A DNA stretch of 64,000 nt from positions 4,234,001 through 4,298,000 of the forward strand of contig OX387201.1 in the NCBI GenBank assembly GCA_947561715.1. The letters run 5' to 3'. The notes below the pieces were generated by a model. The model saw only the letters and a program-made list of their open reading frames with translations, was not told the origin of the DNA and did no database searches. Positions 13,251 through 64,000 of the stretch are shown in pieces. The stretch's first letter is position 1; the number at the start of each line of letters is the position of its first letter. The translations under genes were made by a program, and so were the position numbers. This stretch comes from Ascidia mentula. Lineage: Eukaryota; Chordata; Ascidiacea; Phlebobranchia; Ascidiidae.

Positions 13251-13284
13251 GCGTCAGTCACGTTATCCATTGCGCCACGCGCCC
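13251..13284 (-). pseudogene. Truncated tRNA-Arg copy at the left edge of the array
   Basis: Only the 5' half of the tRNA remains (acceptor 5' strand, D-arm and a scrambled anticodon-stem start). It is followed by a normal unit spacer and marks the point where the array joins unique DNA. Confidence 0.8.
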
Positions 13285-13413
13285 ACGAAATTTACACACA
13301 CATGGAATATTTGAACCTTGACCAGCCACACAAGTCGATAAAAAAAACAGTCTCACCACGACTCGAATCATTCCCGATTTTATGCTTGTCCTCCATAATA
13401 TTGATGAAAAAAG

Positions 13414-13486
13414 CGAGCACGCCAGGACTCGAACCTCGATTCTTCTGATCCGAAGTCAGACGCGTTATCCATTGCGCCACGCGCCC
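13414..13486 (-). tRNA. tRNA-Arg (TCG), first full copy
   Basis: 73 nt, no intron. Acceptor GGGCGCG pairs with CGTGCTC (two G-U pairs) and the discriminator is G73. Anticodon stem is TCTGA/TCAGA with loop CTTCGGA, giving anticodon TCG for CGA codons. The D-loop has GGA with A20, the usual arginine identity base. A T-run follows the 3' end. This edge copy has a G-G mismatch in the T stem, so it may be weaker than the array consensus. Confidence 0.9.
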
Positions 13487-13556
13487 ACGAAAGTTACATA
13501 CAAACATGGAATATTTGATCCTTGTCCAGCCACAATAGTCGATTAAAACAACAGAC

Positions 13557-13560
13557 TTTC
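13557..13560. repeat. Target-site duplication TTTC, left copy
   Basis: TTTC just before the 5' LTR is matched by TTTC at 19471-19474 just after the 3' LTR. Without the element, the site reads as a normal unit spacer, close to the usual sequence between AAACAACAG and CCACGACTCG. Confidence 0.8.
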
Positions 13561-14082
13561 TGTAAACGTCTTTGTTCGTTTTGTTTTTCACACGCTTTAT
13601 TTCTTTTAGTATTTTCACTTCACCTTCACTTTAACTCACATGTTTTTCTTTGTTTACTTTTCACACTCACCTTTACAATATATTTGTAATTATTTTGCAA
13701 TTTACTCGTTTTAATATGCCCGAGTGATCATGCTTGCGTGGCAAACGCGGGCAGAAATGATTGGTCAAGCGCTGGCGAGAGAAATAATGAGCGAAAAGCC
13801 AGACAGTTCTCTGGTGGTGGCGTGTGGTAAACACTGTTTTTGGTGGGAGATCTTATGTGGTAATTGCTGATGAACGCTAGTCGTAGTGGAATGTGTATTT
13901 TGTGCCAGTCTTAGAACAAACGTTGTTTTATTCGCGCTTTTATCGTTTTATTCTTTTTATACCTATTAGCGTTTTTCTATTGTATTACACAAATAGCCAC
14001 CTTGGTCGTGTGACTCCAGGCCTCTGCGATAGGCCGTTAGTGCAGAGTAGCCTAGGCCCAAGACAAGCTAATTTCGGTTACA
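13561..14082 (+). repeat. 5' LTR (522 bp)
   Basis: Begins TGTAAACG and ends GGTTACA. It matches 18949-19470 at 520 of 522 positions. It contains the U3/R/U5 signals by position, but the transcription start is not evident. Confidence 0.95.
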
Positions 14083-14084
14083 TT

Positions 14085-14104
14085 TGGCGAGCACGCCAGG
14101 ACTC
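14085..14104 (+). other. Primer-binding site for tRNA-Arg
   Basis: TGGCGAGCACGCCAGGACTC lies 2 nt after the 5' LTR. It is the exact complement of the last 17 nt of the array's consensus tRNA-Arg plus the post-transcriptional CCA. The TGG is absent from the tRNA genes themselves, where A-runs precede CGAGCACG, so this is a true primer site and not a piece of array DNA. Confidence 0.95.
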
Positions 14105-14146
14105 TGCTATCGCTTATAAGGGGTCACACGGCTTTCAGAGAACTTA

Positions 14147-17100
14147 ATGTCATTTAATTTGTTTTTATCGCCACCGCGCTTTGTACCGGGACAAGATGTT
14201 GGCCAGTTTGTTGCCTTATTTGAATCGTACTGTGAGAGTGTGAAAGCTAGTGAGGAAGTTAAACGTCATCTTTTTTTGACATCAATTGATGATGACCTCC
14301 GCTGGCTAGTTCAGGGAAACGACAATAATGTTTTTCAACTGAAGTACGATGAGTTAATTAGTCGCGCCCTAAAGCAAGGTTCTGACCACTCGCGTCTCCA
14401 TGAAACACGCGCAATGTTGTTTGGCCGGCGGCAGTTGCCACAGGAAAGCATTAAGGACTTTGTGTATGCTTTGAAAGCTCTTGGCGACAAGGCTTATCCT
14501 ACGGAGGAGGCTGTTAAAAATGAGGTGTTATATTCATTACTCTTTGTTGGCATGTTGGACCAGCACATGGCCAGATCCCTGCCGCAACGGTTGGAATATA
14601 AACGGGACTTTTGGACGGCCGCTCAGATGGTCTTGTCCACGCATGTACCGGAAATGTCCCAGGTTTTAGGCGTGTGTCGTCGTGATGTTCAAGGTCCATC
14701 AGTATCAAAACAACCGGAAAAGGATGCAGACATCAGCGTTCGAGAATTCAAAAAAACTGTGACCGCGCTCCAGAAGGACATTGAGCTTGTACGCCGCGAG
14801 GTGCAGCGATTGGGGAAACCAACACCACATCAGATGGCAGACAGGTTGGATCGACGCTGTTATGCCTGTGGTAAACCAGGACACTTGCAAAGATTTTGCC
14901 CAATGCAAGGTAAGCGCGGCTTTCATACCAGTTTTACGCCTCGCAGGAATTTCAATAAAAGACCTGGTACCCCTGTGACCCAAGAGGCAAAAGCAAGTGT
15001 ATGTTTGAAGGACACCGAACCCAAAACTTCGAATCCTACCAATAATCAGAACACGAGCGAGAATCCCACCAAACCCCGATTAGTACGGTTTGTCAACATT
15101 TCTATCGCTTCAGAGCCGGTATGTGCTTTAGTTGATACTGGTGCAAGTGTCTCTTTGATTAGCCAAAAGTGTTTAGAGACGTTGAACAATGATCGCCTCA
15201 AAATCTTCCCGCTGGGCCAAAACGAACGTTTTTCTGGAATTAACGGTAGTTTGGTTTCAGTTACTGGGAAAATCACTGTAAATGTTAAACTGGGAGGGCT
15301 AGATGTTCCCACGTGTTTATATGTCGCGTCGGGCGTCGCTCACCACTTAATTTTGGGTTTGGATTTTCTGCAGAAGAACCGCTGCAGTGTGTGTTACGAC
15401 CAAAATTTGTTGACAGCGGGCCGTGCTAAGGTGCCATTACTCTCGTCGTCTTTCGTACAACGTACCAGAGATATTTGTGTGACCGATGCCACAGAAGTCC
15501 CTCCAATGTCGGAGGTGTGGGCCACATGTAGTTACCACCTTGACGTCTGCGGAGAAGACATCCCTGACTTTGAAGTGTATATTGCGCGAAGACCGGGGTT
15601 TACAGAAAAGATTGGACTCTGTACAGCGAACTGTGTTTCAACTGTGCGGAAAAATGAGGTAAACATACGTATAGCCAATTTTACCGATGACCCAATCCTA
15701 GTACCATCAGCAACTAGGGTTGCTGTCGCGATTCCAGTACACGCTTTTGGCAACGTTGCATGTCCATTATCGGAATGGTGTGTTGTTGTTGAAGATAGCA
15801 GTGTGCAACCTACAGAGGAAGTTTGCAATATCTCCTATGCACAGACACCGACCAATGAAGAAAGTTGGGAATGCATTCACCAAGGCGTGAGTATCGGAGA
15901 TGGGTTGTCAGCAACCCAGAGGGAGGATGTTTTAAAACTTCTTCGTCGCCATCAAAAAGCATTTTCGACATGTAACTTTGACCTAGGCCGGACTGATCTT
16001 GTTCGACATTCGATCGACACCGGGGATGCGGCACCAATCCGTCAACATCCTCGAAGAATGTCCATCCATCATAAAACGGAGGTTGAGAAGATCATCAACG
16101 AAATGCGAAGCCAAGGACTCGTGAGACCTTCAACCTCGCCATGGTCAAGTTCGATTGTTCTGGTGAAAAAGAAGTCTGGTGAGTTACGATTTTGCGTCGA
16201 CTATCGACAAGTAAACGAAGCAACCAAAAAAAACAGTTACCCTATTCCCCGGGTTGATGATAGCCTGGATGAAATGTCTGGGTCACGTTTCTTTTCCACC
16301 CTTGATCTAAAATCTGGCTACTGGCAGATCCCCATGGACGAACAATCAAGGGAGAAGACAGCCTTTGCCAGTCACATGGGTTTGTTTGAATTCACCGTGA
16401 TGCCTATGGGATTATGCAACTCAGCGGCAAGCTTCCAACACCTAATGCGTATTGTGCTGCAGGGTATAGAGTGGCAAGGAACACTCGCATACTTAGACGA
16501 TGTGATTGTTTATGGTAGAAATTTCAACGAACACATGCAGCGTCTTGAAGATGTTCTTTCACGCCTAGAGTCGGCTGGACTTACACTAAAGCCCACGAAG
16601 TGCGACCTGTTCAAAGATGAAGTGCGATTCCTTGGTCACGTAGTGTCAAAACATGGAATACGATGCGACCCCGATAAGGTACGATCAGTTAAAGATTGGC
16701 CAGTACCAAAATCTGTAAAACAGGTGCGTCAATTTGTGGGTCTTACATCGTATTACAGAAAGTTTGTTAAAGATTACGCTCGTATTGCCTCCCCCTTGCA
16801 CAAATTGACAGAAAAGGGACGTCGTTTTGTCTGGACGGACAGTTGCCAGCAGGCGTTCGCCAGACTGAAAAGAATTCTGACAACAGCTCCAGTCCTACAG
16901 TATCCCGACTTAAGCCGACCCTTCGTGTTGGACACCGATGCCTCGGACACAGCCGTGGGTTGTGTTCTCGGTCAGGAAATTGACGGTAAGGAGCATGTGA
17001 TCGCTTACGGCAGTAGGTCATTGAGCAAAGCTGAAAAGCATTATTCCACAACTCGCAAGGAATTGCTGGCCGTCATATTTGCGACTAAGTTGTATCGCAG

Positions 17101-18919
17101 TTATTTGCTCGGATCGAAATTTTTGTTGCGCACAGACCATTCATCCCTTCGCTGGCTGTGGAGATCCAGGGAACTCTATGGACAATGTGCTCGATGGGTT
17201 GAACACCTGGCTAGTTACAATTTTGATCTTCAACACCGGCCCGGAAAGAAGCACACAAACGCAGACGCGCTTAGCCGGAGGCAACCGGAAGATGACGGAT
17301 TCCCTTACACAGTTCGTGAGGATGAGTCATTGGAAGAGGTACTTGCACTTGATTTAAAGGCGGAGTACGGGTATGAGTCCACCCATGTAGCAGAAGCGCA
17401 GTATGGGGACTTAAGTTTGCGTCCTGTAGTAAAATGGGTGCAACAGGGTATAAGGCCGTCTTTTCGCCACGTCAAACGCCTGTCGGCAGAGACAAAACAC
17501 TTATGGAGCCTTTTCGAGCGGCTATCATGTCACGGTGGGGTGCTATTCATTACTGACCCTGGTGCGGTGCCAGGTTTAAACGATGTTCAGAAAGTGTTGG
17601 TACCCTTTGCCATGCGCAGCGAAGTGCTGTCCGCGTGCCACGACCAGGTACACGGCGGGGGACACTTGGGAATGGCTAAAACCCTGAGCAAACTGTCACA
17701 GCGTTTTTACTGGCTAAAATGGAGAGAAGAGACCGAGGCTTATTGCCGTAAATGCGAACACTGTCAACGAAACAAGAAACCAACCACTACCACCCGAGCA
17801 CCGTTAGTTCCATCACAAGAAATGCGACCGATGCAACGCGTTGAGATTGATGTGCTTGGTCCACTTCCGTTAACCAGGACAGGATACCAGTATATCCTAG
17901 TCGCTTGTGATTTATTCACAAAATATGTCAGAGCGTGGCCTATGCGGCATCAAACCGCACATGAAACAGCGAGCATTTTGTTTCACAGGTGGCTAACGGT
18001 ACATGGGGTACCTGAGGTAATTCACTCCGATCAAGGGGGGAATTTCGAAAGCAAATTATTTGCAGAACTGGTGAGGTTGATGGGTTGTAAAAAGACCCGA
18101 ACGACGCCATATCACCCCGCGAGCAATGGGGGAGTCGAACGCAACAACCGCACCATCATAACAATGCTCCGCAATTACGTCCAACGCGATAGTAAACAAT
18201 GGGATGAAGCACTGTCGGCGGTGGTGGCTTCGTACAACGCAAGCCGGCATGAAAGCACGGGGGTATCCCCTCACTTTCTATTTACAGGACACGAACTGCG
18301 CCTACCCGCCGATCTCATTTCTCCAGATCATGAAGTGGCAACGACTCCGCTGGTTTATTTGGATGGGCTACGAGCTCGGTTGCGACTGGCCGAGGAGGTA
18401 GCCAGAGAAACCCTGACGACCCAACGAGTTCACATGCAAGAACAATATAATAGACGACGGCATGGAGACGAAATCACGAAAGGCGACATCGTTCTGTTGG
18501 AGAATCCAGTGGTTCCGCCTGGCGAGTGCCGAAAATTCATCAGACCATACAAAGGCCCTTTTAAAGTTATTGAGCAACACGGTATGGTGAATTACCTTAT
18601 TGAAGGAGAGGATGGCAAACAGCAGCAAGTACATTTCAACCGCTTGAAAAAGGCAAACATGCCTTACCATGAAAAAGAACGCCGAAACACGCAGCCGGAT
18701 GAGCTCGGGCTGCACGACACAGACAATTTTGTTATCTACACACCACAAAGCGAAACACCCACGGACGCACCCACTGTGCAGGATACAGGGTTGCCTACAC
18801 GGCCATTGATGGACGTTGGTCAAGGTTTGGGCGCCGACATAAATGACGCTGCGGCGACGATGAATGATAGCCGGCCACAGCGAAATCGGCGACAAACCAA
18901 ATTTTATCAAGCGTCCTAA
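14147..18919 (+). CDS. gag-pol polyprotein of the LTR element
   Basis: One 1590-codon frame. Order of parts: gag region with a C-x2-C-x4-H-x4-C zinc knuckle at about 238-251; aspartic protease with DTGA at about 330; reverse transcriptase with YLDD at about 782; RNase H with a DTDAS start at about 929; integrase with an HHCC zinc domain from about 1165. The integrase core has Asp1235, Asp1295 and Glu1331 (D,D-35-E spacing), followed by a GPF-like module. No chromodomain is evident at the C-terminus. Gag and pol share one frame. The family's usual products would be made by proteolysis of the single precursor. It looks whole. Confidence 0.95.
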   Translation: MSFNLFLSPPRFVPGQDVGQFVALFESYCESVKASEEVKRHLFLTSIDDDLRWLVQGNDNNVFQLKYDELISRALKQGSDHSRLHETRAMLFGRRQLPQESIKDFVYALKALGDKAYPTEEAVKNEVLYSLLFVGMLDQHMARSLPQRLEYKRDFWTAAQMVLSTHVPEMSQVLGVCRRDVQGPSVSKQPEKDADISVREFKKTVTALQKDIELVRREVQRLGKPTPHQMADRLDRRCYACGKPGHLQRFCPMQGKRGFHTSFTPRRNFNKRPGTPVTQEAKASVCLKDTEPKTSNPTNNQNTSENPTKPRLVRFVNISIASEPVCALVDTGASVSLISQKCLETLNNDRLKIFPLGQNERFSGINGSLVSVTGKITVNVKLGGLDVPTCLYVASGVAHHLILGLDFLQKNRCSVCYDQNLLTAGRAKVPLLSSSFVQRTRDICVTDATEVPPMSEVWATCSYHLDVCGEDIPDFEVYIARRPGFTEKIGLCTANCVSTVRKNEVNIRIANFTDDPILVPSATRVAVAIPVHAFGNVACPLSEWCVVVEDSSVQPTEEVCNISYAQTPTNEESWECIHQGVSIGDGLSATQREDVLKLLRRHQKAFSTCNFDLGRTDLVRHSIDTGDAAPIRQHPRRMSIHHKTEVEKIINEMRSQGLVRPSTSPWSSSIVLVKKKSGELRFCVDYRQVNEATKKNSYPIPRVDDSLDEMSGSRFFSTLDLKSGYWQIPMDEQSREKTAFASHMGLFEFTVMPMGLCNSAASFQHLMRIVLQGIEWQGTLAYLDDVIVYGRNFNEHMQRLEDVLSRLESAGLTLKPTKCDLFKDEVRFLGHVVSKHGIRCDPDKVRSVKDWPVPKSVKQVRQFVGLTSYYRKFVKDYARIASPLHKLTEKGRRFVWTDSCQQAFARLKRILTTAPVLQYPDLSRPFVLDTDASDTAVGCVLGQEIDGKEHVIAYGSRSLSKAEKHYSTTRKELLAVIFATKLYRSYLLGSKFLLRTDHSSLRWLWRSRELYGQCARWVEHLASYNFDLQHRPGKKHTNADALSRRQPEDDGFPYTVREDESLEEVLALDLKAEYGYESTHVAEAQYGDLSLRPVVKWVQQGIRPSFRHVKRLSAETKHLWSLFERLSCHGGVLFITDPGAVPGLNDVQKVLVPFAMRSEVLSACHDQVHGGGHLGMAKTLSKLSQRFYWLKWREETEAYCRKCEHCQRNKKPTTTTRAPLVPSQEMRPMQRVEIDVLGPLPLTRTGYQYILVACDLFTKYVRAWPMRHQTAHETASILFHRWLTVHGVPEVIHSDQGGNFESKLFAELVRLMGCKKTRTTPYHPASNGGVERNNRTIITMLRNYVQRDSKQWDEALSAVVASYNASRHESTGVSPHFLFTGHELRLPADLISPDHEVATTPLVYLDGLRARLRLAEEVARETLTTQRVHMQEQYNRRRHGDEITKGDIVLLENPVVPPGECRKFIRPYKGPFKVIEQHGMVNYLIEGEDGKQQQVHFNRLKKANMPYHEKERRNTQPDELGLHDTDNFVIYTPQSETPTDAPTVQDTGLPTRPLMDVGQGLGADINDAAATMNDSRPQRNRRQTKFYQAS

Positions 18920-18940
18920 CGGAGTAGGACAATTTTTAAC

Positions 18941-18948
18941 GTGGGGGG
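18941..18948 (+). other. Polypurine-type tract before the 3' LTR
   Basis: GTGGGGGG abuts the 3' LTR, where plus-strand priming occurs in this class. It is short and has one T. Confidence 0.6.
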
Positions 18949-19470
18949 TGTAAACGTCTTTGTTCGTTTTGTTTTTCACACGCTTTATTTCTTTTAGTAT
19001 TTTCACTTCACCTTCACTTTAACTCACATGTTTTTCTTTGTTTACTTTTCACACTCACCTTTACAATATATTTGTAATTATTTTGCAATTTACTCGTTTT
19101 AATATGCCCGAGTGATCATGCTTACGTGGCAAACGCGGGCAGAAATGATTGGTCAAGCGCTGGCGAGAGAAATAATGAGCGAAAAGCCAGACAGTTCTCT
19201 GGTGGTGGCGTGTGGTAAACACTGTTTTTGGTGGGAGATCTTATGTGGTAATTGCTGATGAACGCTAGTCGTAGTGGAATGTGTATTTTGTGCCAGTCTT
19301 AGAACAAACGTTGTTTTATTCGCGCTTTAATCGTTTTATTCTTTTTATACCTATTAGCGTTTTTCTATTGTATTACACAAATAGCCACCTTGGTCGTGTG
19401 ACTCCAGGCCTCTGCGATAGGCCGTTAGTGCAGAGTAGCCTAGGCCCAAGACAAGCTAATTTCGGTTACA
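18949..19470 (+). repeat. 3' LTR (522 bp)
   Basis: Near-identical partner of the 5' LTR. It ends TTACA and is followed by the TTTC duplication and then the resumed tRNA-unit spacer. Confidence 0.95.
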
Positions 19471-19531
19471 TTTCCACGACTCGAATCATTCCCTATTTTA
19501 TGCTTGTCCATCATAATATTGATGAAAAAAT

Positions 19532-21859
19532 CGAGCACGCCAGGACTCGAACCAGGAATCTTCTGATCCGTAGTCAGACGCGTTATCCATTGCGCCACGC
19601 GCCCACGTCAGTAACATTAACAAGTTGAATATTTGATCCTTGTCCAGCCACAATAGTCGATTAAAACAACAGTCTTACCACGACTCGAATCATTTTGCTT
19701 GATGCTTGTGCTCCAACGATATTGATGAAAAAAGCGAGCACGCCAGGACTCGAACCAGGAATCTTCTGATGCGTAGTCAGACGTGTTATCCATTGCGCTA
19801 CGCGCCCACGTCAGTAACATTAACAAGTTGAATATTTGATCCTTGTCCAGCCACAATAGTCGATTAAAACAACAGTCTTACCACGACTCGAATCATTTTG
19901 CTTGATGCTTGTGCTCCAACGATATTGATGAAAAAAGCGAGCACGCCAGGACTCGAACCAGGAATCTTCTGATCCGTAGTCAGACGCGTTATCCATTGCG
20001 CCACGCGCCCACGTCAGTAACATTAACAAATTGAATGTTTTACCCTTGTCCAGCTACAATATTCGATTAAAACAACAGTCTCCCCACGACTAGAATCATT
20101 CCCGATTTAATGCTTGTCCTACATAATATTGATGAAAAAAGCGAGCACGCCAGGACTCGAACCTGGAAACTTCTGATCCGAAGTCAGACGCGTTATCCAT
20201 TGCGCTACGCGCACACGTCAGTAACATTAACAAGTTGAATATTTGATCCTTGTCCAACAACAATATTGGATTAAAACAACAGTCTTACCACGACTCGAAT
20301 CATTCCCGATTTTTTGCTTGTCCTCCATAATATTGATGAAAAAAGCGAGCACGCCAGGACTCGAACCTGGATTCTTCTGATCCGAAGTCAGACGCGTTAT
20401 CCATTGCGCCACGCGCCCACGAAATTTACATACACACATGGATTATTTGATCCTTGTCCAGCCACAATAGTCGATTAAAACAACAGTCTTACCACGACTC
20501 GAATCATTTTGCTTAATGCTTGTTCTCCAACGATATTGATGAAAAAATCGAGCACGCCAGGACTCGAACCTGGATTCTTCTGATCCGAAGTCAGACGCGT
20601 TATCCATTGCGCCACGCGCCCACGAAATTTACATACACACATGGAATACTTGATCCTTGTCCAGCCACAAGAGTCGATTAAAACAACTGTCTCACCACGA
20701 CTCGAATCATTCCCGATTTTATGCTTGTGCTCCTACGAGTGCTCCTACGATATTGATATAAAAAGCGAGCACGCCAGGACTCGAACCTGGAATCTTCTGA
20801 TCCGTAGTCAGACGCGTTATCCATTGCGCCACGCGCCCACGTCAGTAACATCAACAAATTGAATGTTTCAACCTTGTCCAGCTACAATATTTAATTAAAA
20901 CAACAGTCTCCCCACGACTCGAATCATTCCCGATTTTATGCTCGTCCTCCATAATATTGATGAAAAAAGCGAGCACGCCAGGACTCGAACCTGGAATCTT
21001 CTGATCCGAAGTCAGACGCGTTATCCATTGCGCCACGCGCCCAAGAAATTTACACACACACAAGGAATATTTGATCCTTGTCCAGCCACACTAGTCGACA
21101 AAAACAACAGTCTCACCACGACTCGAATCATTCCTGATTTTATGCTTGTCCTCCATAATATTGATGAAAAAAGCGAGCACGCCAGGACTCGAATCTGGAA
21201 TCTTCTGATCCGAAGTCAGACGCGTTATCCATTGCGCCACGCGCCCACATCAGTAACATTAACAAATTGAATGTTTTACCCTTGTCCAGCCACAATATTG
21301 GATCAAAACAACAGTCTCCCCACGACTAGAATCATTCCTGATTTTATGCTTGTCCTCCATAATATTGATGAAAAAAACGAGCACGCCAGGACTCGAACCT
21401 GGAATCTTCTGATCCGAAGTCAGACGCGTTATCCATTGCGCCACGCGCCCACGAAAGTTACATACAAACATGGAATATTTGATCCTTGTCCAGCCAAAAT
21501 AGTCGATGAAAACAACTGTCTCACCACGACTCGAATCATTCCCGATTTTATGCTTGTGCTCCAACGATATTGATGAAAAAAGCGAGCACGCCAGGACTCG
21601 AACCTGGAATCTTCTGATCCGTAGTCAGACGCGTTATCCATTGCGGCACGCGCCCACGTCAGTAAAATCAACAAATTGAATGTTTTAACCTTGTCCAGCT
21701 ACAATATTTAATTAAAACAACAGTCTCCCCACGACTCGAATCATTCCCGATTTTATGCTTGTCCGCCATAATATTGATGAAAAAAGCGAGCACGCCAGGA
21801 TTCGAACCTGGAATCTTCTGATCCGTAGTCAGACGCGTTATCCATTGCGCCACGCGCCC
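19532..21859 (-). tRNA. tRNA-Arg block I: 12 copies, edge zone
   Basis: Each gene runs from the plus-strand start given here for 73 nt; suffix A marks anticodon ACG, the others are TCG. Starts: 19532A, 19735A, 19938A, 20142, 20346, 20549, 20766A, 20970, 21174, 21378, 21583A, 21787A. The first three have a T-stem mismatch (ACCAGG for ACCTGG on the plus strand), and 19735 also has C at position 37. The 20549-20766 spacer has a 12-13 bp internal duplication. Sequence variety is higher here than deeper in the array. Confidence 0.9.
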
Positions 21860-21990
21860 ACATCAGTAACATTAACAAATTGAATGTTTTACCCTTGTCC
21901 AGCCACAATATTGGATTAAAACAACAGTCTCCCCACGACTAGAATCATTCCTGATTTTATGCTTGTCTTCCATAATATTGATGAAAAAAA

Positions 21991-24650: not shown

Positions 24651-24780
24651 ACGTCAGTAACATTAACAAATTGAATATTTGATCCTTGTCCAACAACAAT
24701 ATTGGATTAAAACAACAGTCTCCCCACGACTCGAATCATTCCCGATTTTATGCTTGTCCTCCATAATATTGATGAAAAAA

Positions 24781-28497: not shown

Positions 28498-28593
28498 CTT
28501 GTCCAGCCACACTAGTCCACAAAAACAACAGTCTCACCACGACTCGAATCATTCCCGATTTTATGCTTGTCCTCCATAATATTGATGAAAAAA

Positions 28594-31500
28594 CGAGCAC
28601 GCCAGGACTCGAACCTGGAATCTTCTGATCCGAAGTCAGTCGCGTTATCCATTGCGCCACGCGCCCACGTCAGTAACATTAACAAATTGAATAGTTGATC
28701 CTTGTCCAACAACTATATTGGATTAAAACAACAGTCTCCCCACGACTCGAATCATTCCCGATTTTATGCTTGTCCTCCATAATATTGATGAAAAAACGAG
28801 CACGCCAGGACTCGAACCTGGAATCTTCTGATCCGAAGTCAGACGCGTTATCCATTGCGCCACGCGCCCACGAAATTTACATACACACATGGAATATTTG
28901 ATCCTTGTCCAGCCACACTAGTCGATAAAAACAACAGTCTCACCACGACTCGAATCATTCCCGATTTTATGCTTGTCCTCCATAATATTGATAAAAAAAG
29001 CGAGCACGCCAGGACTCGAACCTGGAATCTTCTGATCCGAAGTCAGACGCGTTATCCATTGCGCCACGCGCCCACGAAATTTGCATACACACATGGAATA
29101 TTTGATCCTTGTCCAGCCACACTTGTCGATAAAAACAACAGTCTTACCACGACTCGAATCATTCCCGATTTTATGCTTGTCCTCCATAATATTGATAAAA
29201 AAAGCGAGCACGCCAGGACTCGAACCTGGAATCTTCTGATCCGTAGTCAGACGCGTTATCCATTGCGCCACGCGCCCACATCAGTAACATTAACAAATTG
29301 AATATTTGATCCTTGTCCAGCCACACTAGTCGATAAAAACAACAGTCTTACTACGACTCGAATCATTCCCGATTTTATGCTTGTCCTCCATAATATTGAT
29401 AAAAAAAGCGAGCACGCCACGACTCGAACCTGGAATCTTCTGATCCGAAGTCAGACGCGTTATCCATTGCGCCACGCGCCCACGAAATTTGCATACACAC
29501 ATGGAATATTTGATCCTTGTCCAGCCACACTTGTCGATAAAAACAACAGTCTCACCACGACTCGAATCATTCCCGATTTTATGCTTGTCCTCATTAATAT
29601 TGATGAAAAAACGAGCACGCAAGGACTCGAACCTGGAATCTTCTGATCCGTAGTCCAACGCGTTATCCATTGCGCCTCTCGCCCCTTGTCCAGCCACACT
29701 AGTCCACAAAAACAACAGTCTCACCACGACTCGAATCATTCCCGATTTTATGCTTGTCCTCCATAATATTGATGAAAAAACGAGCACGCCAGGACTCGAA
29801 CCTGGAATCTTCTGATCCGAAGTCAGTCGCGTTATCCATTGCGCCACGCGCCCACGTCAGTAACATTAACAAATTGAATAGTTGATCCTTGTCCAACAAC
29901 TATATTGGATTAAAACAACAGTCTCCCCACGACTCGAATCATTCCCGATTTTATGCTTGTCCTCCATAATATTGATGAAAAAACGAGCACGCCAGGACTC
30001 GAACCTGGAATCTTCTGATCCGAAGTCAGACGCGTTATCCATTGCGCCACGCGCCCACGAAATTTACATACACACATGGAATATTTGATCCTTGTCCAGC
30101 CACACTAGTCGATAAAAACAACAGTCTCACCACGACTCGAATCATTCCCGATTTTATGCTTGTCCTCCATAATATTGATAAAAAAAGCGAGCACGCCAGG
30201 ACTCGAACCTGGAATCTTCTGATCCGAAGTCAGACGCGTTATCCATTGCGCCACGCGCCCACGAAATTTGCATACACACATGGAATATTTGATCCTTGTC
30301 CAGCCACACTTGTCGATAAAAACAACAGTCTTACCACGACTCGAATCATTCCCGATTTTATGCTTGTCCTCCATAATATTGATAAAAAAAGCGAGCACGC
30401 CAGGACTCGAACCTGGAATCTTCTGATCCGTAGTCAGACGCGTTATCCATTGCGCCACGCGCCCACATCAGTAACATTAACAAATTGAATATTTGATCCT
30501 TGTCCAGCCACACTAGTCGATAAAAACAACAGTCTTACTACGACTCGAATCATTCCCGATTTTATGCTTGTCCTCCATAATATTGATAAAAAAAGCGAGC
30601 ACGCCACGACTCGAACCTGGAATCTTCTGATCCGAAGTCAGACGCGTTATCCATTGCGCCACGCGCCCACGAAATTTGCATACACACATGGAATATTTGA
30701 TCCTTGTCCAGCCACACTTGTCGATAAAAACAACAGTCTCACCACGACTCGAATCATTCCCGATTTTATGCTTGTCCTCATTAATATTGATGAAAAAACG
30801 AGCACGCAAGGACTCGAACCTGGAATCTTCTGATCCGTAGTCCAACGCGTTATCCATTGCGCCTCTCGCCCCTTGTCCAGCCACACTAGTCCACAAAAAC
30901 AACAGTCTCACCACGACTCGAATCATTCCCGATTTTATGCTTGTCCTCCATAATATTGATGAAAAAACGAGCACGCCAGGACTCGAACCTGGAATCTTCT
31001 GATCCGAAGTCAGTCGCGTTATCCATTGCGCCACGCGCCCACGTCAGTAACATTAACAAATTGAATAGTTGATCCTTGTCCAACAACTATATTGGATTAA
31101 AACAACAGTCTCCCCACGACTCGAATCATTCCCGATTTTATGCTTGTCCTCCATAATATTGATGAAAAAACGAGCACGCCAGGACTCGAACCTGGAATCT
31201 TCTGATCCGAAGTCAGACGCGTTATCCATTGCGCCACGCGCCCACGAAATTTACATACACACATGGAATATTTGATCCTTGTCCAGCCACACTAGTCGAT
31301 AAAAACAACAGTCTCACCACGACTCGAATCATTCCCGATTTTATGCTTGTCCTCCATAATATTGATAAAAAAAGCGAGCACGCCAGGACTCGAACCTGGA
31401 ATCTTCTGATCCGAAGTCAGACGCGTTATCCATTGCGCCACGCGCCCACGAAATTTGCATACACACATGGAATATTTGATCCTTGTCCAGCCACACTTGT

Positions 31501-32634: not shown

Positions 32635-32765
32635 ACGAAATTTGCATACACACATGGAATATTTGATCCTTGTCCAGCCACACTTGTCGATAAAAACAAC
32701 AGTCTTACCACGACTCGAATCATTCCCGATTTTATGCTTGTCCTCCATAATATTGATAAAAAAAG

Positions 32766-36257: not shown

Positions 36258-36387
36258 ACGTCAGTAACATTAACAAATTGAATAGTTGATCCTTGTCCAA
36301 CAACTATATTGGATTAAAACAACAGTCTCCCCACGACTCGAATCATTCCCGATTTTATGCTTGTCCTCCATAATATTGATGAAAAAA

Positions 36388-42779: not shown

Positions 42780-42909
42780 ACGTCAGTAACATTAACAAAT
42801 TGAATAGTTGATCCTTGTCCAACAACTATATTGGATTAAAACAACAGTCTCCCCACGACTCGAATCATTCCCGATTTTATGCTTGTCCTCCATAATATTG
42901 ATGAAAAAA

Positions 42910-45900: not shown

Positions 45901-48896
45901 ACAGTCTCACCACGACTCGAATCATTCCCGATTTTATGCTTGTCCTCCATAATATTGATGAAAAAAGCGAGCACGCCAGGACTCGAACCTGGAATCTTCT
46001 GATCCGAAGTCAGACGCGTTATCCATTGCGCCACGCGCCCACGAAATATACATACACTCATGGAATTTTTGATCCTTGTCCAACCACAATATTCGATTAA
46101 AACAACAGTCCCCTCACGACTCGAATCATTCCCGATTTTTTGCTTATGCTCCAACGATATTGATGAAAAAAGCGAGCACGCCAGGACTCGAACCTGGAAT
46201 CTTCTGATCCGTAGTCAGACGCGTTATCCATTGCGCCACGCGCCCACGTCAGTAACATTAACAAATTGAATATTTGATCCTTGTCCAACAACTATATTGG
46301 ATTAAATCAACAGTCTCCCCACGACTCGAATCATTCCCGATTTTATGCTTGTCCTCCATAATATTGATGAAAAAACGAGCACGCCAGGACTCGAACCTGG
46401 AATCTTCTGATCCGTAGTCAGACGCGTTATCCATTGCGCCACGCGCCCACGTCAGTAACATTAACAAATTGAATATTTGATCCTTGTCCAACAACTATAT
46501 TGGATTAAAACAACAGTCTCCCCACGACTCGAATCATTCCCGATTTTATGCTTGTCCTCCATAATATTGATGAAAAAAGCGAGCACGCCAGGACTCGAAC
46601 CTGGAATCTTCTGATCCGAAGTCAGTCGCGTTATCCATTGCGCCACGCGCCCACGAAATATACATACACTCATGGAATTTTTGATCCTTGTCCAACCACA
46701 ATATTCGATTAAAACAACAGTCTCCTCACGACTCGAATCATTCCCGATTTTTTGCTTATGCTCCAACGATATTGATGAAAAAAGCGAGCACGCCAGGACT
46801 CGAACCTGGAATCATCTGATCCGAAGTCAGACGCGTTATCCATTGCGCCACGCGCCCACGAAACATGTATACACACATGGAATATTTGATCCTTGTCCAG
46901 CCACAATAGTCGATTAAAACAACAGTCTCCTCACGACTCGAATCATCCCCGATTTTATGCTTGTGCTCCAACGATGTTGATGAAAAATAGCGAGCACGCC
47001 AGGACTCGAACCTGGAATCTTCTGATCCGTAGTCAGACGCGTTATCCATTGCGCCACGCGCCCACCTCAGTAACATTAACAAATTGAATATTTGATCCTT
47101 GTCCAACAACTATATTGGATTAAAACAACAGTCTCCCCACGACTCGAATCATTCCCGATTTTATGCTTGTCCTCCATAATATTGATGAAAAAACGAGCAG
47201 GCCAGGACTCGAACCTGGAATCTTCTGATCCGAAGTCAGACGCGTTATCCATTGCGCCACGCGCCCACGAAATTTACATACACACATGGAATATTTGATC
47301 CTTGTCCAGCCACAATAGTCGATTAAAACAACAGTCTCCACACGACTCGAATCACTCCCGATTTTATGTTTGTCCTCCATAATATTGATGAAAAAATCGA
47401 GCACGCCAGGACTCGAAACTGGAATCTTCTGATCCGAAGTCAGACGCGTTATCCATTGCGCCACGCGCCCACGAAATATACATACACTCATGGAATTTTT
47501 GATCCTTGTCCAACAACTATATTGGATTAAAACAACAGTCTCCCCACGACTCGAATCATTCCCGATTTTATGCTTGTCCTCCATAATATTGATGAAAAAA
47601 CGAGCACGCCAGGACTCGAACCTGGAATCTTCTGATCCGAAGTCAGACGCGTTATCCATTGCGCCACGCGCGCACGAAATTTACATACACACATGGAATA
47701 TTTGATCCTTGTCCAGCCACAATAGTCGATTAAGACAACAGTCTCCACACGACTCGAATCACTCCCGATTTTATGTTTGTCCTCCATAATATTGATGAAA
47801 AAATCGAGCACGCCAGGACTCGAACCTGGAATCTTCTGATCCGAAGTCAGACGCGTTATCCATTGCGCCACGCGCCCACGAAATATACATACACTCATGG
47901 AATTTTTGATCCTTGTCCAGCCACAATAGTCGATTAAAACAACAGTCTCCTCACGACTCGAATCATTCCCGATTTTATGCTTGTCCTCCATAATATTGTT
48001 GAAAAAAGCGAGCACGCCAGGACTCGAACCTGGAATCTTCTGATCCGAAGTCAGACGCGTTATCCATTGCGCCACGCGCCCACGAAATATACATACACTC
48101 ATGGAATTTTTGATCCTTGTCCAGCCACAATAGTCGATTAAAACTACAGTCTCCTCACGACTGGAAATATTCCCGATTTTATGTTTGTGCTCCAACGATA
48201 TTGATGAAAAAACGAGCACGCCAGGACTCGAACCTGGAATCTTCTGATCCGAAGTCAGACGCGTTATTCATTGCCCCACGCGCCCACGTCAGTAACATTA
48301 ACAAATTGAATAGTTGATCCTTGTCCAACAACGATATTGGATTAAAACAACAGTCTCCCCACGACTCGAATCATTCCCGATTTTATGCTTGTCCTCCATA
48401 ATATTGATGAAAAAACGAGCACGCCAGGACTCGAACCTGGAATCTTCTGATCCGAAGTAAGACGCGTTATCCATTGCGCCACGCGGCCACGAAATTTGCA
48501 TATACACATGGAATATTTGATCCTTGTCCAGCCACACTAGTCGATAAAAACAACAGTCTCACCACGACTCGAATCATTCCCGATTTTATGCTTGTCCTCC
48601 ATAATATTGATAAAAAAAGCGAGCACGCCAGGACTCGAACCTGGAATCTTCTGATCCGAAGTCAGACGCGTTATCCATTGCGCCACGCGCCCACGAAATT
48701 TGCATACACACATGGAATATTTGATCCTTGTCCAGCCACACTAGTCGATAAAAACAACAATCTCACCACGACTCGAATCATTCCCGATTTTATGCTTGTC
48801 CTCCATAATATTGATAAAAAAAGCGAGCACGCCAGGACTCGAACCTGGAATCTTCTGATCCGAAGTCAGACGCGTTATCCATTGCGCCACGCACCC
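42910..48896 (-). tRNA. tRNA-Arg block VIII: 30 copies, second 6.5-kb repeat
   Basis: Starts (73 nt each; A = ACG): 42910, 43114, 43318, 43521, 43724, 43928, 44133A, 44336A, 44539, 44743, 44947, 45151, 45355, 45560A, 45764, 45968, 46173A, 46376A, 46580, 46785, 46991A, 47194, 47398, 47601, 47805, 48009, 48213, 48416, 48620, 48824. Offset from block VII is 6522 bp, then 6523 bp after a 1-bp difference near 45130. Anticodons agree position by position. Only a handful of substitutions separate the two, and defective copies (43521, 45151, 45764, 47194, 47398, 48213) are shared. Confidence 0.92.
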
Positions 48897-49026
48897 AGGT
48901 CAGTAACATTAACAAATTGAATATTTGATCCTTGTCCAACAACAATATTGGATTAAAACAACAGTCTCCCCACGACTCGAATCATTCCCGATTTTATGCT
49001 TGTCCTCCATAATATTGATGAAAAAA

Positions 49027-52000
49027 CGAGCACGCCAGGACTCGAACCTCGAATCTTCTGATCCGAAGTCAGACGCGTTATCCATTGCGCCACGCGCCCA
49101 CGAAATTTGCATATACACATGGAATATTTGATCCTTGTCCAGCCACAATAGTCGATTAAGACAACAGTCTCCACACGACTCGAATCACTCCCGATTTTAT
49201 GTTTGTCCTCCATAATATTGATGAAAAAACGAGCACGCCAGGACTCGAACCTGGAATCTTCTGATCCGAAGTCAGACGCGTTATCCATTGCGCCACGCGC
49301 CCACGAAATTTGCATACACACATGGAATATTTGATCCTTGTCCAGCCACACTAGTCGATAAAAGCAACAGTCTCACCACGACTCGAATCATTCCCGATTT
49401 TATGCTTGTCCTCCATAATATTGTTGAAAAAAGCGAGCACGCCAGGACTCGAACCTGGAATCTTCTGATCCGAAGTCAGACGCGTTGTCCATTGCGCCAC
49501 GCGGCCACGAAATATACATACACTCATGGAATTTTTTATCCTTGTCCAGCCACAATAGTCGATTAAAACAACAGTCTCCTCACGACTCGAATCATTCCCG
49601 ATTTTATGCTTGTGCTCCAACGATATTGATGAAAAAAGCGAGCACGCCAGGACTCGAACCTGGAATCTTCTGATCCGTAGTCAGACGCGTTATCCATTGC
49701 GCCAAGGGCCCACGTCCGTAACATTAACAAATTGAATATTTGGTCCATGTCCAACAACTATATTGGATTAAAACAACAGTCTCCCCACGACTCGAATCAT
49801 TCCCGATTTTATGCTTGTCCTCCATAATATTGATGAAAAAACGAGCACGCCAGGACTCGAACCTGGAATCTTCTGATCCGTAGTCAGACGCGTTATCCAT
49901 TGCGCCACGCGCCCACGTCAGTAACATTAACAAATTGAATATTTGATCCTTGTCCAACAACTATATTGGATTAAAACAACAGTCTCCCCACGACTCGAAT
50001 CATTCCCGATTTTATGCTTGTCCTCCATAATATTGATGAAAAAACGAGCACGCCAGGACTCGAACCTGGAATCTTCTGATCCGAAGTCAGACGCGTTATC
50101 CATTGCGCCACGCGCCCACGAAATTTGCATACACACATGGAATATTTGATCCTTGTCCAGCCACAATAGTCGATTAAGACAACAGTCTCCAGATGACTCG
50201 AATCACTCCCTATTTTATGTTTATCCTCCATAATATTGATGAAAAAATCGAGCACGCCAGGACTCGAATCTGGAATCTTCTGATCCGAAGTCAGATGCGT
50301 TATCCATTGCGCCACGCGCCCACGAAATATACATACACTCATGGAATTTTTGATCCTTGTCCAGCCACAATAGTCGATTAAAACAACAGTCTCCTCACGA
50401 CTCGAATCATTCCCGATTTTATGCTTGTCCTCCATAATATTGTTGAAAAAAGCGAGCACGCCAGGACTCGAACCTGGAATCTTCTGATCCGAAGTCAGAC
50501 GCGTTATCCATTGCGCCACGCGCCCACGAAATATACATACACACATGGAATATTTGATCCTTGTCCAGCCACAATAGTCGATTAAAACTACAGTCTCCTC
50601 ACGACTCGAAATATTCCCGATTTTATGTTTGTGCTCCAACGATATTGATGAAAAAACGAGCACGCCAGGACTCGAACCTGGAATCTTCTGATCCGAAGTC
50701 AGACGCGTTATTCATTGCCCCACGCGCCCACGAAATTTGCATACACACATGGAATATTTGATCCTTGTCCAGCCACACTAGTCGATAAAAGCAACAGTCT
50801 CACCACGACTCGAATCATTCCCGATTTTATGCTTGTCCTCCATAATATTGATGAAAAAAGCGAGCACGCCAGGACTCGAACCTGGAATCTTCTGATCCGA
50901 AGTCAGACGCGTTATCCATTGCGCCACGCGCCCACGAAATATACATACACTCATGGAATTTTTGATCCTTGTCCAACCACAATATTCGATTAAAACAACA
51001 GTCTCCTCACGACTCGAATCATTCCCGATTTTTTGCTTATGCTCCAACGATATTGATGAAAAAAGCGAGCACGCCAGGACTCGAACCTGGAATCTTCTGA
51101 TCCGTAGTCAGACGCGTTATCCATTGCGCCACGCGCCCACGTCAGTAACATTAACAAATTGAATATTTGATCCTTGTCCAACAACTATATTGGATTAAAT
51201 CAACAGTCTCCCCACGACTCGAATCATTCCCGATTTTATGCTTGTCCTCCATAATATTGATGAAAAAACGAGCACGCCAGGACTCGAACCTGGAATCTTC
51301 TGATCCGTAGTCAGACGCGTTATCCATTGCGCCACGCGCCCACGTCAGTAACATTAACAAATTGAATATTTGATCCTTGTCCAACAACTATATTGGATTA
51401 AAACAACAGTCTCCCCACGACTCGAATCATTCCCGATTTTATGCTTGTCCTCCATAATATTGATGAAAAAAGCGAGCACGCCAGGACTCGAACCTGGAAT
51501 CTTCTGATCCGAAGTCAGTCGCGTTATCCATTGCGCCACGCGCCCAAGAAATATACATACACTCATGGAATTTTTGATCCTTGTCCAACCACAATATTCG
51601 ATTAAAACAACAGTCTCCTCACGACTCGAATCATTCCCGATTTTTTGCTTATGCTCCAACGATATTGATGAAAAAAGCGAGCACGCCAGGACTCGAACCT
51701 GGAATCATCTGATCCGAAGTCAGACGCGTTATCCATTGCGCCACGCGCCCACGAAACATGTATACACACATGGAATATTTGATCCTTGTCCAGCCACAAT
51801 AGTCGATTAAAACAACAGTCTCCTCACGACTCGAATCATCCCCGATTTTATGCTTGTGCTCCAACGATGTTGATGAAAAATAGCGAGCACGCCAGGACTC
51901 GAACCTGGAATCTTCTGATCCGTAGTCAGACGCGTTATCCATTGCGCCACGCGCCCACATCAGTAACATTAACAAATTGAATATTTGATCCTTGTCCAAC

Positions 52001-52975: not shown

Positions 52976-53105
52976 ACGTCAGTAACATTAACAAATTGAA
53001 TATTTGATCCTTGTCCAACAACTAAATCGGATTAAAACAACAGTCTCCCCACGACTCGAATCATTCCCGATTTTATGCTTGTCCTCCATAATATTGATGA
53101 AAAAA

Positions 53106-56629: not shown

Positions 56630-56760
56630 ACGAAATTTGCATACACACATGGAATATTTGATCCTTGTCCAGCCACACTAGTCGATAAAAGCAACAGTCT
56701 CACCACGACTCGAATCATTCCCGATTTTATGCTTGTCCTCCATAATATTGATGAAAAAAG

Positions 56761-59700: not shown

Positions 59701-60900
59701 ATTTGATCCTTGTCCAGCCACACTAGTCGATTAAGACAACAGTCTCCCCACGACTCGAATCACTCCCGATTTTATGTTTGTCCTCCATAATATTGATGAA
59801 AAAACGAGCACGCCAGGACTCGAACCTGGAATCTTCTGATCCGAAGTCAGACGCGTTATCCATTGCGCCACGCGCCCACGAAATATACATACACTCATGG
59901 AATTTTTGATCCTTGTCCAGCCACAATAGTCGATTAAAACAACAGTCTCCTCACGACTCGAATCATTCCCGATTTTATGCTTGTCCTCCATAATATTGAT
60001 GAAAAAAGCGAGCACGCCAGGACTCGAACCTGGAATCTTCTGATCCGAAGTCAGACGCGTTATCCATTGCGCCACGCGCCCACGAAATTTGCATACACAC
60101 ATGGAATATTTGATCCTTGTCCAGCCACACTAGTCGATAAAAGCAACAGTCTCACCACGACTCGAATCATTCCCGATTTTATGCTTGTGCTCCAACGATA
60201 TTGATGAAAAAAAGCGAGCACGCCAGGACTCGAACCTGGAATCTTCTGATCCGTAGTCAGACGCGTTATCCATTGCGCCACGCGCCCACGTCAGTAACAT
60301 TAACAAACTGAATATTTGATCCTTGTCCAACAACTATATTGGATTAAAACAACAGTCTCCTCACGACTCGAATCATTCCCGATTTTATGCTTGTGCTCCA
60401 ACGATGTTGATGAAAAATAGCGAGCACGCCAGGACTCGAACCTGGAATCTTCTGATCCGTAGTCAGACGCGTTATCCATTGCGCCACGCGCCCACCTCAG
60501 TAACATTAACAAATTGAATATTTGATCCTTGTCCAACAACTATATTGGATTAAAACAACAGTCTCCCCACGACTCGAATCATTCCCGATTTTATGCTTGT
60601 CCTCTATAATATTGATGAAAAAACGAGCACGCCAGGACTCGAACCTGGAATCTTCTGATCCGAAGTCAGACGCGTTATCCATTGCGCCACGCGCCCACGA
60701 AATTTACATACACACATGGAATATTTGATCCTTGTCCAGCCACAATAGTCGATTAAGACAACAGTCTCCACACGACTCGAATCACTCCCGATTTTATGTT
60801 TGTCCTCCATAATATTGATGAAAAAATCGAGCACGCCAGGACTCGAACCTGGAATCTTCTGATCCGAAGTCAGACGCGTTATCCATTGCGCCACGCGCCC
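56761..60900 (-). tRNA. tRNA-Arg block XI: 21 copies
   Basis: Starts (73 nt each; A = ACG): 56761, 56964, 57162, 57366, 57569, 57774, 57979A, 58182, 58386, 58589, 58787A, 58990, 59194, 59397, 59602, 59805, 60009, 60215A, 60421A, 60624, 60828. The first six copy 54331-55547 (offset 2430, then 2227 bp after loss of the unit equivalent to 54935). 59194 and 59397 have T-arm changes. Confidence 0.9.
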
Positions 60901-61031
60901 ACGAAATATACATACACTCATGGAATTTTTGATCCTTGTCCAGCCACAATAGTCGATTAAAACAACAGTCTCCTCACGACTCGAATCATTCCCGATTTTA
61001 TGCTTGTCCTCCATAATATTGTTGAAAAAAG

Positions 61032-63958
61032 CGAGCACGCCAGGACTCGAACCTGGAATCTTCTGATCCGTAGTCAGACGCGTTATCCATTGCGCCACGC
61101 GCCCACCTCAGTAACATTAACAAATTGAATATTTGATCCTTGTCCAACAACTATATTGGATTAAAACAACAGTCTCCCCACGACTCGAATCATTCCCGAT
61201 TTTATGCTTGTCCTCTATAATATTGATGAAAAAACGAGCACGCCAGGACTCGAACCTGGAATCTTCTGATCCGAAGTCAGACGCGTTATCCATTGCGCCA
61301 CGCGCCCACGAAATTTACATACACACATGGAATATTTGATCCTTGTCCAGCCACACTAGTCGATTAAGACAACAGTCTCCACACGACTCGAATCACTCCC
61401 GATTTTATGTTTGTCCTCCATAATATTGATGAAAAAATCGAGCACGCCAGGACTCGAACCTGGAATCTTCTGATCCGAAGTCAGACGCGTTATCCATTGC
61501 GCCACGCGCCCACGAAATATACATACACTCATGGAATTTTTGATCCTTGTCCAGCCACAATAGTCGATTAAAACAACAGTCTCCTCACGACTCGAATCAT
61601 TCCCGATTTTATGCTTGTCCTCCATAATATTGTTGAAAAAAGCGAGCACGCCAGGACTCGAACCTGGAATCTTCTGATCCGTAGTCAGACGCGTTATCCA
61701 TTGCGCCACGCGCCCACCTCAGTAACGTTAACAAATTGAATATTTGATCCTTGTCCAACAACTATATTGGATTAAAACAACCGTCTCCCCACGACTCGAA
61801 TCATTCCCGATTTTATGCTTGTCCTCTATAATATTGATGAAAAAACGAGCACGCCAGGACTCGAACCTGGAATCTTCTGATCCGAAGTCAGACGCGTTAT
61901 CCATTGCGCCACGCGCCCACGAAATATACATACACTCATGGAATTTTTGATCCTTGTCCAGCCACAATAGTCGATTAAAACAACAGTCTCCTCACGACTC
62001 GAATCATTCCCGATTTTATGCTTGTCCTCCATAATATTGTTGAAAAAAGCGAGCACGCCAGGACTCGAACCTGGAATCTTCTGATCCGAAGTCAGACGCG
62101 TTATCCATTGCGCCACGCGCCCACGAAATATACATACACTCATGGAATTTTTGATCCTTGTCCAGCCACAATAGTCGATTAAAACAACAGTCTCCTCACG
62201 ACTCGAATCATTCCCGATTTTATGCTTGTCCTCCATAATATTGTTGAAAAAAGCGAGCACGCCAGGACTCGAACCTGGAATCTTCTGATCCGAAGTCAGA
62301 CGCGTTATCCATTGCGCCACGCGCCCACGAAATATACATACACTCATGGAATTTTTGATCCTTGTCCAACAACTATATTGGATTAAAACAACAGTCTTCC
62401 CACGACTCGAATCATTCCCGATTTTATGCTTATCCTCCATAATATTGATGAAAAAACGAGCACGCCTGGACTCGAACCTGGAATCTTCTGATCCGAAGTC
62501 AGACGCGTTATCCATTGCGCCACGCGCCCACGAAATATACATACACTCATGGAATTTTTGATCCTTGTCCAGCCACAATAGTCGATTAAAACAACAGTCT
62601 CCTCACGAATCGAATCATTCCCGATTTTATGCTTGTCCTCCATAATATTGTTGAAAAAAGCGAGCACGCCAGGACTCGAACCTGGAATCTTCTGATCCGA
62701 AGACAGACGCGTTATCCATTGCGCCACGCGCCCACGAAATATACATACACTCATGGAATTTTTGATCCTTGTCCAGCCACAATAGTCGATTAAAACAACA
62801 GTCTCCTCACGACTCGAAATATTCCCTATTTTATGTTTGTGCTCCAACGATATTGATGAAAAAACGAGCACGCCAGGACTCGAACCTGGAATCTTCTGAT
62901 CCGAAGTCAGACGCGTTATTCATTGCCCCACGCGCCCACGTCAGTAACATTAACAAATTGAATATTTGATCCTTGTCCAACAACTATTTTGGATTAAAAC
63001 AACAGTCTCCCCACGACTCGAATCATTCCCGATTTTATGCTTGTGCTCCAACGATGTTGATGAAAAACAGCGAGCACGCCAGGACTCGAACCTGGAATCT
63101 TCTGATCCGAAGTCAGACGCGTTATCCATTGCGCCACGCGCCCACGAAATTTACATACACACATAGAATATTTGATCCTTGTCCAGCCACAATAGTCCAT
63201 TAAGACAACAGTCTCCACACGACTCGAATCACTCCCGATTTTATGTTTGTCCTCCATAATATTGTTAAAAAAAGCGAGCACGCCAGGACTCGAACCTGGA
63301 ATCTTCTGATCCGAAGTCAGACGCGTTATCCATTGCGCCACGCGCCCACGAAATATACATACACTCATGGAATTTTTGATCCTTGTCCAACAACTATATT
63401 GGATTAAAACAACAGTCTCCCCACGACTCGAATCATTCCCGATTTTATGCTTATCCTCCATAATATTGATGAAAAAACGAGCACGCCTGGACTCGAACCT
63501 GGAATCTTCTGATCCGAAGTCAGACGCGTTATCCATTGCGCCACGCGCCCACGAAATATACATACACTCATGGAATTTTTGATCCTTGTCCAGCCACAAT
63601 AGTCGATTAAAACAACAGTCTCCTCACGAATCGAATCATTCCCGATTTTATGCTTGTCCTCCATAATATTGTTGAAAAAAGCGAGCACGCCAGGACTCGA
63701 ACCTGGAATCTTCTGATCCGAAGACAGACGCGTTATCCATTGCGCCACGCGCCCACGAAATATACATACACTCATGGAATTTTTGATCCTTGTCCAGCCA
63801 CAATAGTCGATTAAAACAACAGTCTCCTCACGATTCGAAATATTCCCGATTTTATGTTTGTGCTCCAACGATATTGATGAAAAATCGAGCACGCCAGGAC
63901 TCGAACCTGGAATCTTCTGATCCGAAGTCAGACGCGTTATTCATTGCCCCACGCGCCC
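61032..63958 (-). tRNA. tRNA-Arg block XII: 15 copies to the window edge
   Basis: Starts (73 nt each; A = ACG): 61032A, 61235, 61439, 61643A, 61846, 62050, 62254, 62457, 62661, 62865, 63071, 63275, 63478, 63682, 63886. 62457-62865 repeats as 63478-63886 at 1021 bp (five units). 62865 and 63886 carry the D-arm change; 62661 and 63682 have an anticodon-stem substitution (CGAAGACAG). The spacer at 63959-64000 is normal, so the array goes on. Confidence 0.9.
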
Positions 63959-64000
63959 ACGTCAGTAACATTAACAAATTGAATATTTGATCCTTGTCCA

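Follow-up and report, generated by a model that had tools for sequence, protein, structure and literature searches.

A tandem array of about 330 tRNA-Arg genes in the ascidian Ascidia mentula, one of several RNA polymerase III gene arrays in its genome and a candidate source of tRNA for oogenesis

The window analyzed here, a 64,000-nucleotide stretch of the genome of the ascidian Ascidia mentula (contig OX387201.1 of assembly GCA_947561715.1, positions 4,234,001 to 4,298,000), carries a head-to-tail array of a single type of tRNA-Arg gene that continues beyond the right end of the window. The genome analyzed has 195.8 Mb in 79 contigs, and the contig that bears the array, here called C69, is chromosome 5. 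An initial annotation of the window had described at least 221 copies of the gene in units of about 204 bp, all on one strand and occupying about 44.8 kb apart from a long terminal repeat (LTR) retrotransposon, and these figures, as well as the start of the array, were right. In the window, ARAGORN identifies 215 tRNA-Arg genes, every one on the minus strand, and BLAST with a single copy as query returns 220 near-full-length copies and three partial matches, one of the latter falling on the primer-binding site of the LTR element rather than on a gene. When the next 100 kb of the contig is added, the whole array extends over C69:4247253-4320075, which is 72.8 kb including one LTR element, and contains 329 tRNA copies, all on the minus strand and head to tail, 326 of which gave excisable units. 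An array of about 330 tRNA-Arg copies is thus confirmed as genuine. Read along the minus strand, a unit begins with the 73-nt tRNA-Arg, followed directly by a run of T and then by about 125 bp of spacer. The great majority of units (302/326) measure 203 to 206 bp, the others being 169 bp (10 units), 190 bp (6 units), 198 bp (4 units), or one of four lengths that occur once each. The features of the locus are as follows.

13253..64000 and on to window coordinate 86075, minus strand: tRNA-Arg tandem array, unit of about 204 bp
13253..13284, minus strand: truncated tRNA copy (gene positions 1-32) at the left end of the array, from BLAST
13414..13486, minus strand: the complete tRNA-Arg(TCG) copy nearest the LTR element on its left, from ARAGORN and Rfam
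13561..19470, plus strand: Ty3-type LTR retrotransposon, 5910 bp, in the spacer of one unit
14085..14104, plus strand: primer-binding site within the LTR element, complementary to the 3'-terminal 17 nt of the array tRNA-Arg together with CCA
19532..20010, minus strand: first three tRNA copies right of the LTR element, anticodon ACG, from ARAGORN
28498..32838, minus strand: higher-order block, 16 units recurring at a 6-unit offset with 2 differences
34770..34816, minus strand: partial tRNA copy (positions 27-73 aligned) ahead of a 257-bp spacing, from BLAST
36259..49099 (span of both copies), minus strand: block of 31 units recurring at a 32-unit offset with 10 differences

The internal higher-order structure that had been noted in the array takes the form of duplicated blocks of up to 31 units. 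Besides the two blocks listed above, a run of 18 units recurs at a 27-unit offset with 2 differences. On average, about 20 sites distinguish a unit from its neighbor, the closest relative of a unit lies at a median distance of 29 units, and 180 of the 326 units have an identical twin among the other units. The block repeats and the many identical twins show that the array grows by copying blocks, and that its turnover proceeds through the duplication of blocks of units. Assemblers are known to have trouble with tandem arrays, and the identical twins could be taken as a mark of copy number inflated by the assembler. We nevertheless judge such an artefactual expansion very improbable. No N occurs in the sequence of the whole array, and HiFi reads can be placed within it because neighboring units are so divergent; the genome report gives 74-fold coverage in HiFi reads, a quality value (QV) of 64.9, and a contig N50 of 11.9 Mb (PMC11109543).

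Most copies appear sound, as the initial annotation had supposed. The consensus cloverleaf of the array tRNA-Arg has intact stems, and all of its pairs are kept in 202/326 units, with one broken pair in 96, more than one in 21, and gaps in 7; the 13-22 pair, a natural C-A mismatch in the consensus, is excluded from these counts. With regard to RNA polymerase III (Pol III) signals, the consensus A box is exact in 281/326 units and the B box in 279/326, and a terminator of at least four T residues is present in 318/326. Apart from the wobble base, 157/326 units (117 with T, 40 with A) are identical to the consensus. The Rfam tRNA model was applied to the 13 copies in window positions 1-22000, which score 42.1 to 61.7 bits, and to locus L010, where the weakest row scores 36.7 bits, all above the cut-off of 29 bits. 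Mass pseudogenization is therefore not supported, given the cloverleafs, boxes, and terminators that are largely kept and the Rfam scores over the cut-off in the copies scored, and scoring that calls nearly all copies pseudogenes was not seen.

The array had also been described as single-isotype, which is correct for the amino acid, arginine, but not for the anticodon. The anticodon is TCG in 250/326 units and ACG in 76/326, that is, the wobble base A34 has become T in the majority, and position 34 is the only site of the tRNA with a minor allele above 10%. Outside the array, we find two solitary copies of the same tRNA body, one on C2 (L029) and one on C70 (L030). Both have the anticodon ACG and equal the array ACG copies at 73/73 sites. 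Exact matches to the anticodon arms number 279 genome-wide, of which 277 lie within the array stretch, and U34 on the Arg(ACG) body has no exact match in the genome outside the array. The canonical Arg(TCG) gene has a separate sequence, with 83-87% identity where the two align, and its family is represented by 9 exact anticodon arms, each of which lies on C52. Judged by these comparisons, the array body is of the Arg(ACG) type and the canonical Arg(UCG) genes are a separate family. Since the solitary genes with the same body read ACG and the canonical Arg(TCG) is a different sequence, the array most likely originated from an Arg(ACG) gene, with a wobble change that still specifies arginine spreading later to three quarters of the copies. 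We considered whether the wobble allele is tied to one spacer family, as the mark of a single amplified lineage, and rejected this: its r2 does not exceed 0.20 with any of the common spacer sites, and with spacer site 90, for example, all four combinations are present. Exchange or recurrent change would therefore have moved the wobble allele between backgrounds.

An array of this kind had been called unusual, which does not hold within the A. mentula genome. A search for paired B boxes 120-180 bases apart gave 1363 pattern matches against 1 in a reversed control, and six other tRNA arrays and one 5S array were found; ARAGORN detected no tRNA in four further candidate clusters (L034, L035, L047, and L048). 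The Arg array is thus one of several Pol III gene arrays in this genome. With the exception of the Lys/Glu array, the isotypes given here come from short samples of 5 to 42 copies.

C70:14198647-14281939: tRNA-Lys(TTT) and tRNA-Glu(CTC) alternating in 303-bp dimers, about 83 kb and, by span, about 275 dimers, sampled in six stretches of 10 kb (L019-L024)
C2:13133147-13146549: tRNA-Arg(CCT) array, 142-bp units, about 10 kb from a solitary Arg(ACG) gene (L040, L043)
C2:14740392-14746891 at least: tRNA-Ala array, 140-bp units, TGC in 30/42 and CGC in 12/42 (L041, L042)
C67:10659553-10668729: tRNA-Ser(AGA) array, 151-bp units (L044)
C67:14573475-14580607, perhaps further: tRNA-Ser(TGA) array (L045)
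C69:9737018-9750300: tRNA-Gly(TCC) cluster, sharing its chromosome with the Arg array (L046)
C2, first and last sites located at 19393136 and 19810287: 5S array, 184-bp units, with its own 5S type

The pattern of variants among units allows us to ask whether the tRNA part is constrained. We define common variants as those above 5% and exclude spacer columns 74-80, which leaves 124 spacer sites to set against the 73 sites of the tRNA; variants are counted as independent events, and block duplication makes their frequencies rough. The tRNA has 4 common alleles (3 without the wobble) and 77 rarer ones, and the spacer has 38 common alleles and 148 rarer ones, so that the tRNA has a deficit of common variants even when the wobble is excluded (Fisher p=3e-4). 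In the Lys/Glu array, from which 134 units were taken in six of about 10 stretches, the depletion is weaker (9 common alleles over 145 tRNA sites versus 26 over 158 spacer sites, with 79 and 87 rare alleles; p=0.024), and rare alleles per site are 0.54 in tRNA and 0.55 in spacer. The youngest variants of the Arg array carry no such constraint. Singletons are equally dense in the two parts, 30 over the 73 tRNA sites and 51 over the 124 spacer sites, and among the 319 ungapped copies 41 of the 53 distinct stem variants break a pair, compared with 98 of 120 possible ones. Neither singleton density nor pair-breaking variants show any sign of selection on individual copies. Per site, the tRNA and the spacer have the same number of C>T alleles (0.56 in each) and of G>A alleles (0.62 in each), and A>G alleles are fewer in the tRNA (0.15 versus 0.54). 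These rates speak neither for nor against transcription-associated mutation, which may be a cause of the equal singleton density. Taken as it stands, that equality makes single copies look dispensable, and on our reading of these variants a single copy would be dispensable and the array as a whole would not.

These counts bear directly on a competing explanation, to which we give an appreciable though minority share of our confidence, namely that the array is a satellite built of tRNA genes, spread by unequal exchange and consisting mostly of silent copies (for example, in heterochromatin) that are intact because of a recent homogenizing expansion. The equal density of singletons and the unavoided pair-breaking variants are what such a satellite would show, as are the large recent block duplications, and the Ser(TGA) array offers a parallel: a by-eye count finds an extra A after the T stem in 25/40 rows listed there, a version that has been amplified and is probably defective. 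A satellite without function would leave its tRNA part unconstrained, however, and the depletion of common variants in the Arg tRNA, and more weakly in the Lys and Glu tRNAs, argues otherwise, as do the terminators kept in nearly all units and the absence of anticodon variants that would alter the amino acid.

This last point comes from a test on the Arg, Lys, Glu, and Ala arrays (326, 140, 139, and 42 copies, respectively), in which 27 one-base changes of the anticodon would change the amino acid. No such allele was seen in these copies, against 5.66 expected from the other sites of the tRNAs (p=0.0035), a value that weakens to p=0.023 once a decayed 70-nt terminal copy of the Lys/Glu array, called as Asp(GTC), is counted. 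That copy had been left out for its unusual length together with 2 Lys and 2 Glu copies, one of the latter being called TTC, which leaves the amino acid unchanged. Six ARAGORN calls of "Cys(gca)" in the Ala array were counted as Ala(TGC), because their anticodon stem is changed but the loop still reads TGC. Changes that keep the amino acid do reach high frequency in two arrays, A34 in Arg (76/326) and C34 in Ala (12/42). Since misreading does harm only if the copies are transcribed, the missing identity changes are an indirect sign of expression, and suggest that the copies of the Arg array are transcribed.

The prominence of position 34, the sole tRNA site with so frequent a minor allele, could also be read as adaptive, in a constitutive dosage array that provides more tRNA-Arg in all cells for CGA/CGG codons and in which U34 was selected for that purpose. 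By the rules of decoding, A34 (as inosine) and U34 read overlapping, yet different, CGN codons. We hold this to be improbable, as the Ala array is likewise mixed at the wobble position, which is expected of drift at a synonymous position, and the canonical Arg(UCG) gene is already present in at least 9 copies.

The 5S genes of A. mentula fall into two types. A core 33-mer that covers both has 1231 exact matches in the genome, 16 of the dispersed type and 1215 of the other, and among the matches listed all cores of the other type lie on C2 at 19.39-19.46 Mb. In a full comparison of three genes, the array type is separated from the two dispersed genes by 18 and 16 differences over 119 sites. At 17/61 and 31/46, paired changes preserve base pairing in each of the three folds. 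At 68/107 and 69/106, they do so for the C1 gene and the array type, and the C70 gene is predicted to fold differently at these positions. The array type has lost the pair 2-117, and its predicted fold has -39.0 kcal/mol compared with -49.8 and -48.5 for the dispersed genes. As some of the paired changes keep the fold, both types look sound, with a weaker predicted fold for the array type.

The LTR element in the Arg array has two 522-bp LTRs with 2 differences between them and a 4-bp target duplication, TTTC. Searched in three pieces, it matches zinc knuckle, protease, reverse transcriptase (RT), RNase H, and integrase, and the LTRs, the tRNA primer-binding site, and the order protease-RT-RNase H-integrase identify it as Ty3-type. 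Its primer-binding site matches the array tRNA, and the element would therefore be primed by the tRNA of the very array that surrounds it; being one insertion, it has no bearing on a preference for tRNA genes. The spacer consensus, for its part, contains at positions 118-128 a B-box-like stretch, GATTCGAGTCG, perhaps the relic of a second tRNA. To the left of the array, minus-strand open frames at 2436-2914, 7486-7974, and 10313-10876 encode tyrosine kinase and EGF domains, and window positions 1-868 hold a diverged eukaryotic 18S rRNA-like fragment (Rfam RF01960, 312 bits), cut off by the window start, that is probably a piece of a pseudogene.

Tandem tRNA arrays or large tRNA clusters are already known from frogs, Entamoeba, Nematostella, and fish, and what appears unusual here is an isoacceptor shift across an array that tags its product. 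The tRNA repeat unit of Xenopus holds several tRNA isotypes, whereas the A. mentula Arg array has one tRNA per unit. Xenopus resembles A. mentula in its high-number tandem Pol III repeats, with 20,000 copies of oocyte-type 5S compared with 400 somatic ones (PMC5513064). In Entamoeba, almost all tRNA genes lie in 25 array units of up to five genes each, some of them also with 5S, and short tandem repeats separate the genes (PMC2652664). The tandem units bearing tRNA genes are shared with A. mentula, which differs in also having dispersed tRNA genes and in that no short repeats are reported in its spacer. Clusters of fifty or more tRNA genes in Nematostella and zebrafish are mostly of mixed pairs (PMC2888827), unlike this array of one isotype with a wobble polymorphism. 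Substitutions that shift the anticodon by one base on an otherwise unchanged body have been described in tRNA families for single genes (PMC7884595), whereas here the shift has spread to 250 tandem copies. For tunicates, a study of Didemnum counts 5313 tRNA loci and, in its accessible sections, does not mention arrays (PMC5006418). Among the titles listed for open-licence papers on ascidian and tunicate tRNA genes, none concerns such arrays.

The closest parallel is zebrafish, where tRNA isodecoders of the egg stage come from highly repetitive regions and later ones from scattered genes (PMC11417395), and where 2330 maternal 5S genes on chromosome 4 stand beside 12 somatic ones (PMC5513064). 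A. mentula likewise has repetitive beside scattered tRNA genes, and a high-number 5S array beside a dispersed 5S type of about a dozen genes; 277/279 exact anticodon arms of the Arg tRNA lie in the array stretch, and exact 5S cores number 1215 of other than the dispersed type versus 16 of the dispersed type. It differs in that its arrays are distributed over several chromosomes (C2, C67, C69, and C70), that each array sampled has one isotype except for the Lys/Glu dimer, and that the array tRNAs compared equal the solitary genes save for the Arg wobble. Because the layout of the genome resembles the maternal arrays of zebrafish, we consider a supply of tRNA and 5S in oogenesis the most likely use of the arrays, by analogy.

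The two descriptions offered by the initial annotation, a high-output factory or a homogenized satellite, each fit in part, as the array combines kept cloverleafs and terminators with free singletons and block duplications. Our own explanation, in which we place about half our confidence, is that these roughly 330 tRNA-Arg genes with Pol III signals form one of several such arrays, derived from Arg(ACG), grown by blocks, under selection as an array, and probably supplying oogenesis. An ancestral Arg(ACG) gene most likely gave rise to the array, which turns over by block duplication; selection would act on the array as a whole and purge anticodon changes that alter the amino acid, with single copies not visibly protected; and wobble changes that keep arginine would drift freely, which would be why three quarters of the copies now read UCG. 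The arrays would provide bulk tRNA and 5S for oogenesis, and the few dispersed genes would serve the soma, as in zebrafish and Xenopus. Several observations weigh against this explanation. In addition to the unprotected single copies, the Ser(TGA) variant, and the decayed Asp-called copy discussed above, the mature sequence encoded by the solitary Arg(ACG) genes is that of array copies, and so is that of the one solitary Lys gene seen, which equals the array consensus. By sequence, the array tRNAs would thus have no separate "maternal" type, the UCG variant excepted, and a distinct array RNA is found only for 5S, in the two dispersed genes compared, and at the wobble base of Arg. Moreover, several of the 16 "dispersed" 5S cores are close together on C1.

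A broader proposal, which we put forward tentatively and regard as rather unlikely, is that tunicates have an egg set of array-borne tRNA and 5S genes distinct from a dispersed soma set, as is known from fish and frogs, and that the egg set of A. mentula includes its own tRNA-Arg with U34 on the Arg(ACG) body, which no gene seen outside the array would supply. If true, a U34 tRNA-Arg made from hundreds of array copies would alter the reading of arginine codons in the embryo. The array bears on whether the copies of large tRNA arrays are in use and on what keeps them sound. An array-specific tag is provided by U34 on the Arg(ACG) body, and because it is absent from exact matches outside the array, the output of the array could be measured by ordinary tRNA-seq, a direct measurement that cannot be made for arrays whose genes are identical to the solitary ones. 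The pattern of variants, with single copies unprotected, identity changes missing, and the wobble free, provides a test case for selection on redundant gene arrays. Finally, the existence of two 5S types suggests that a division of Pol III genes between egg and soma may not be confined to vertebrates.

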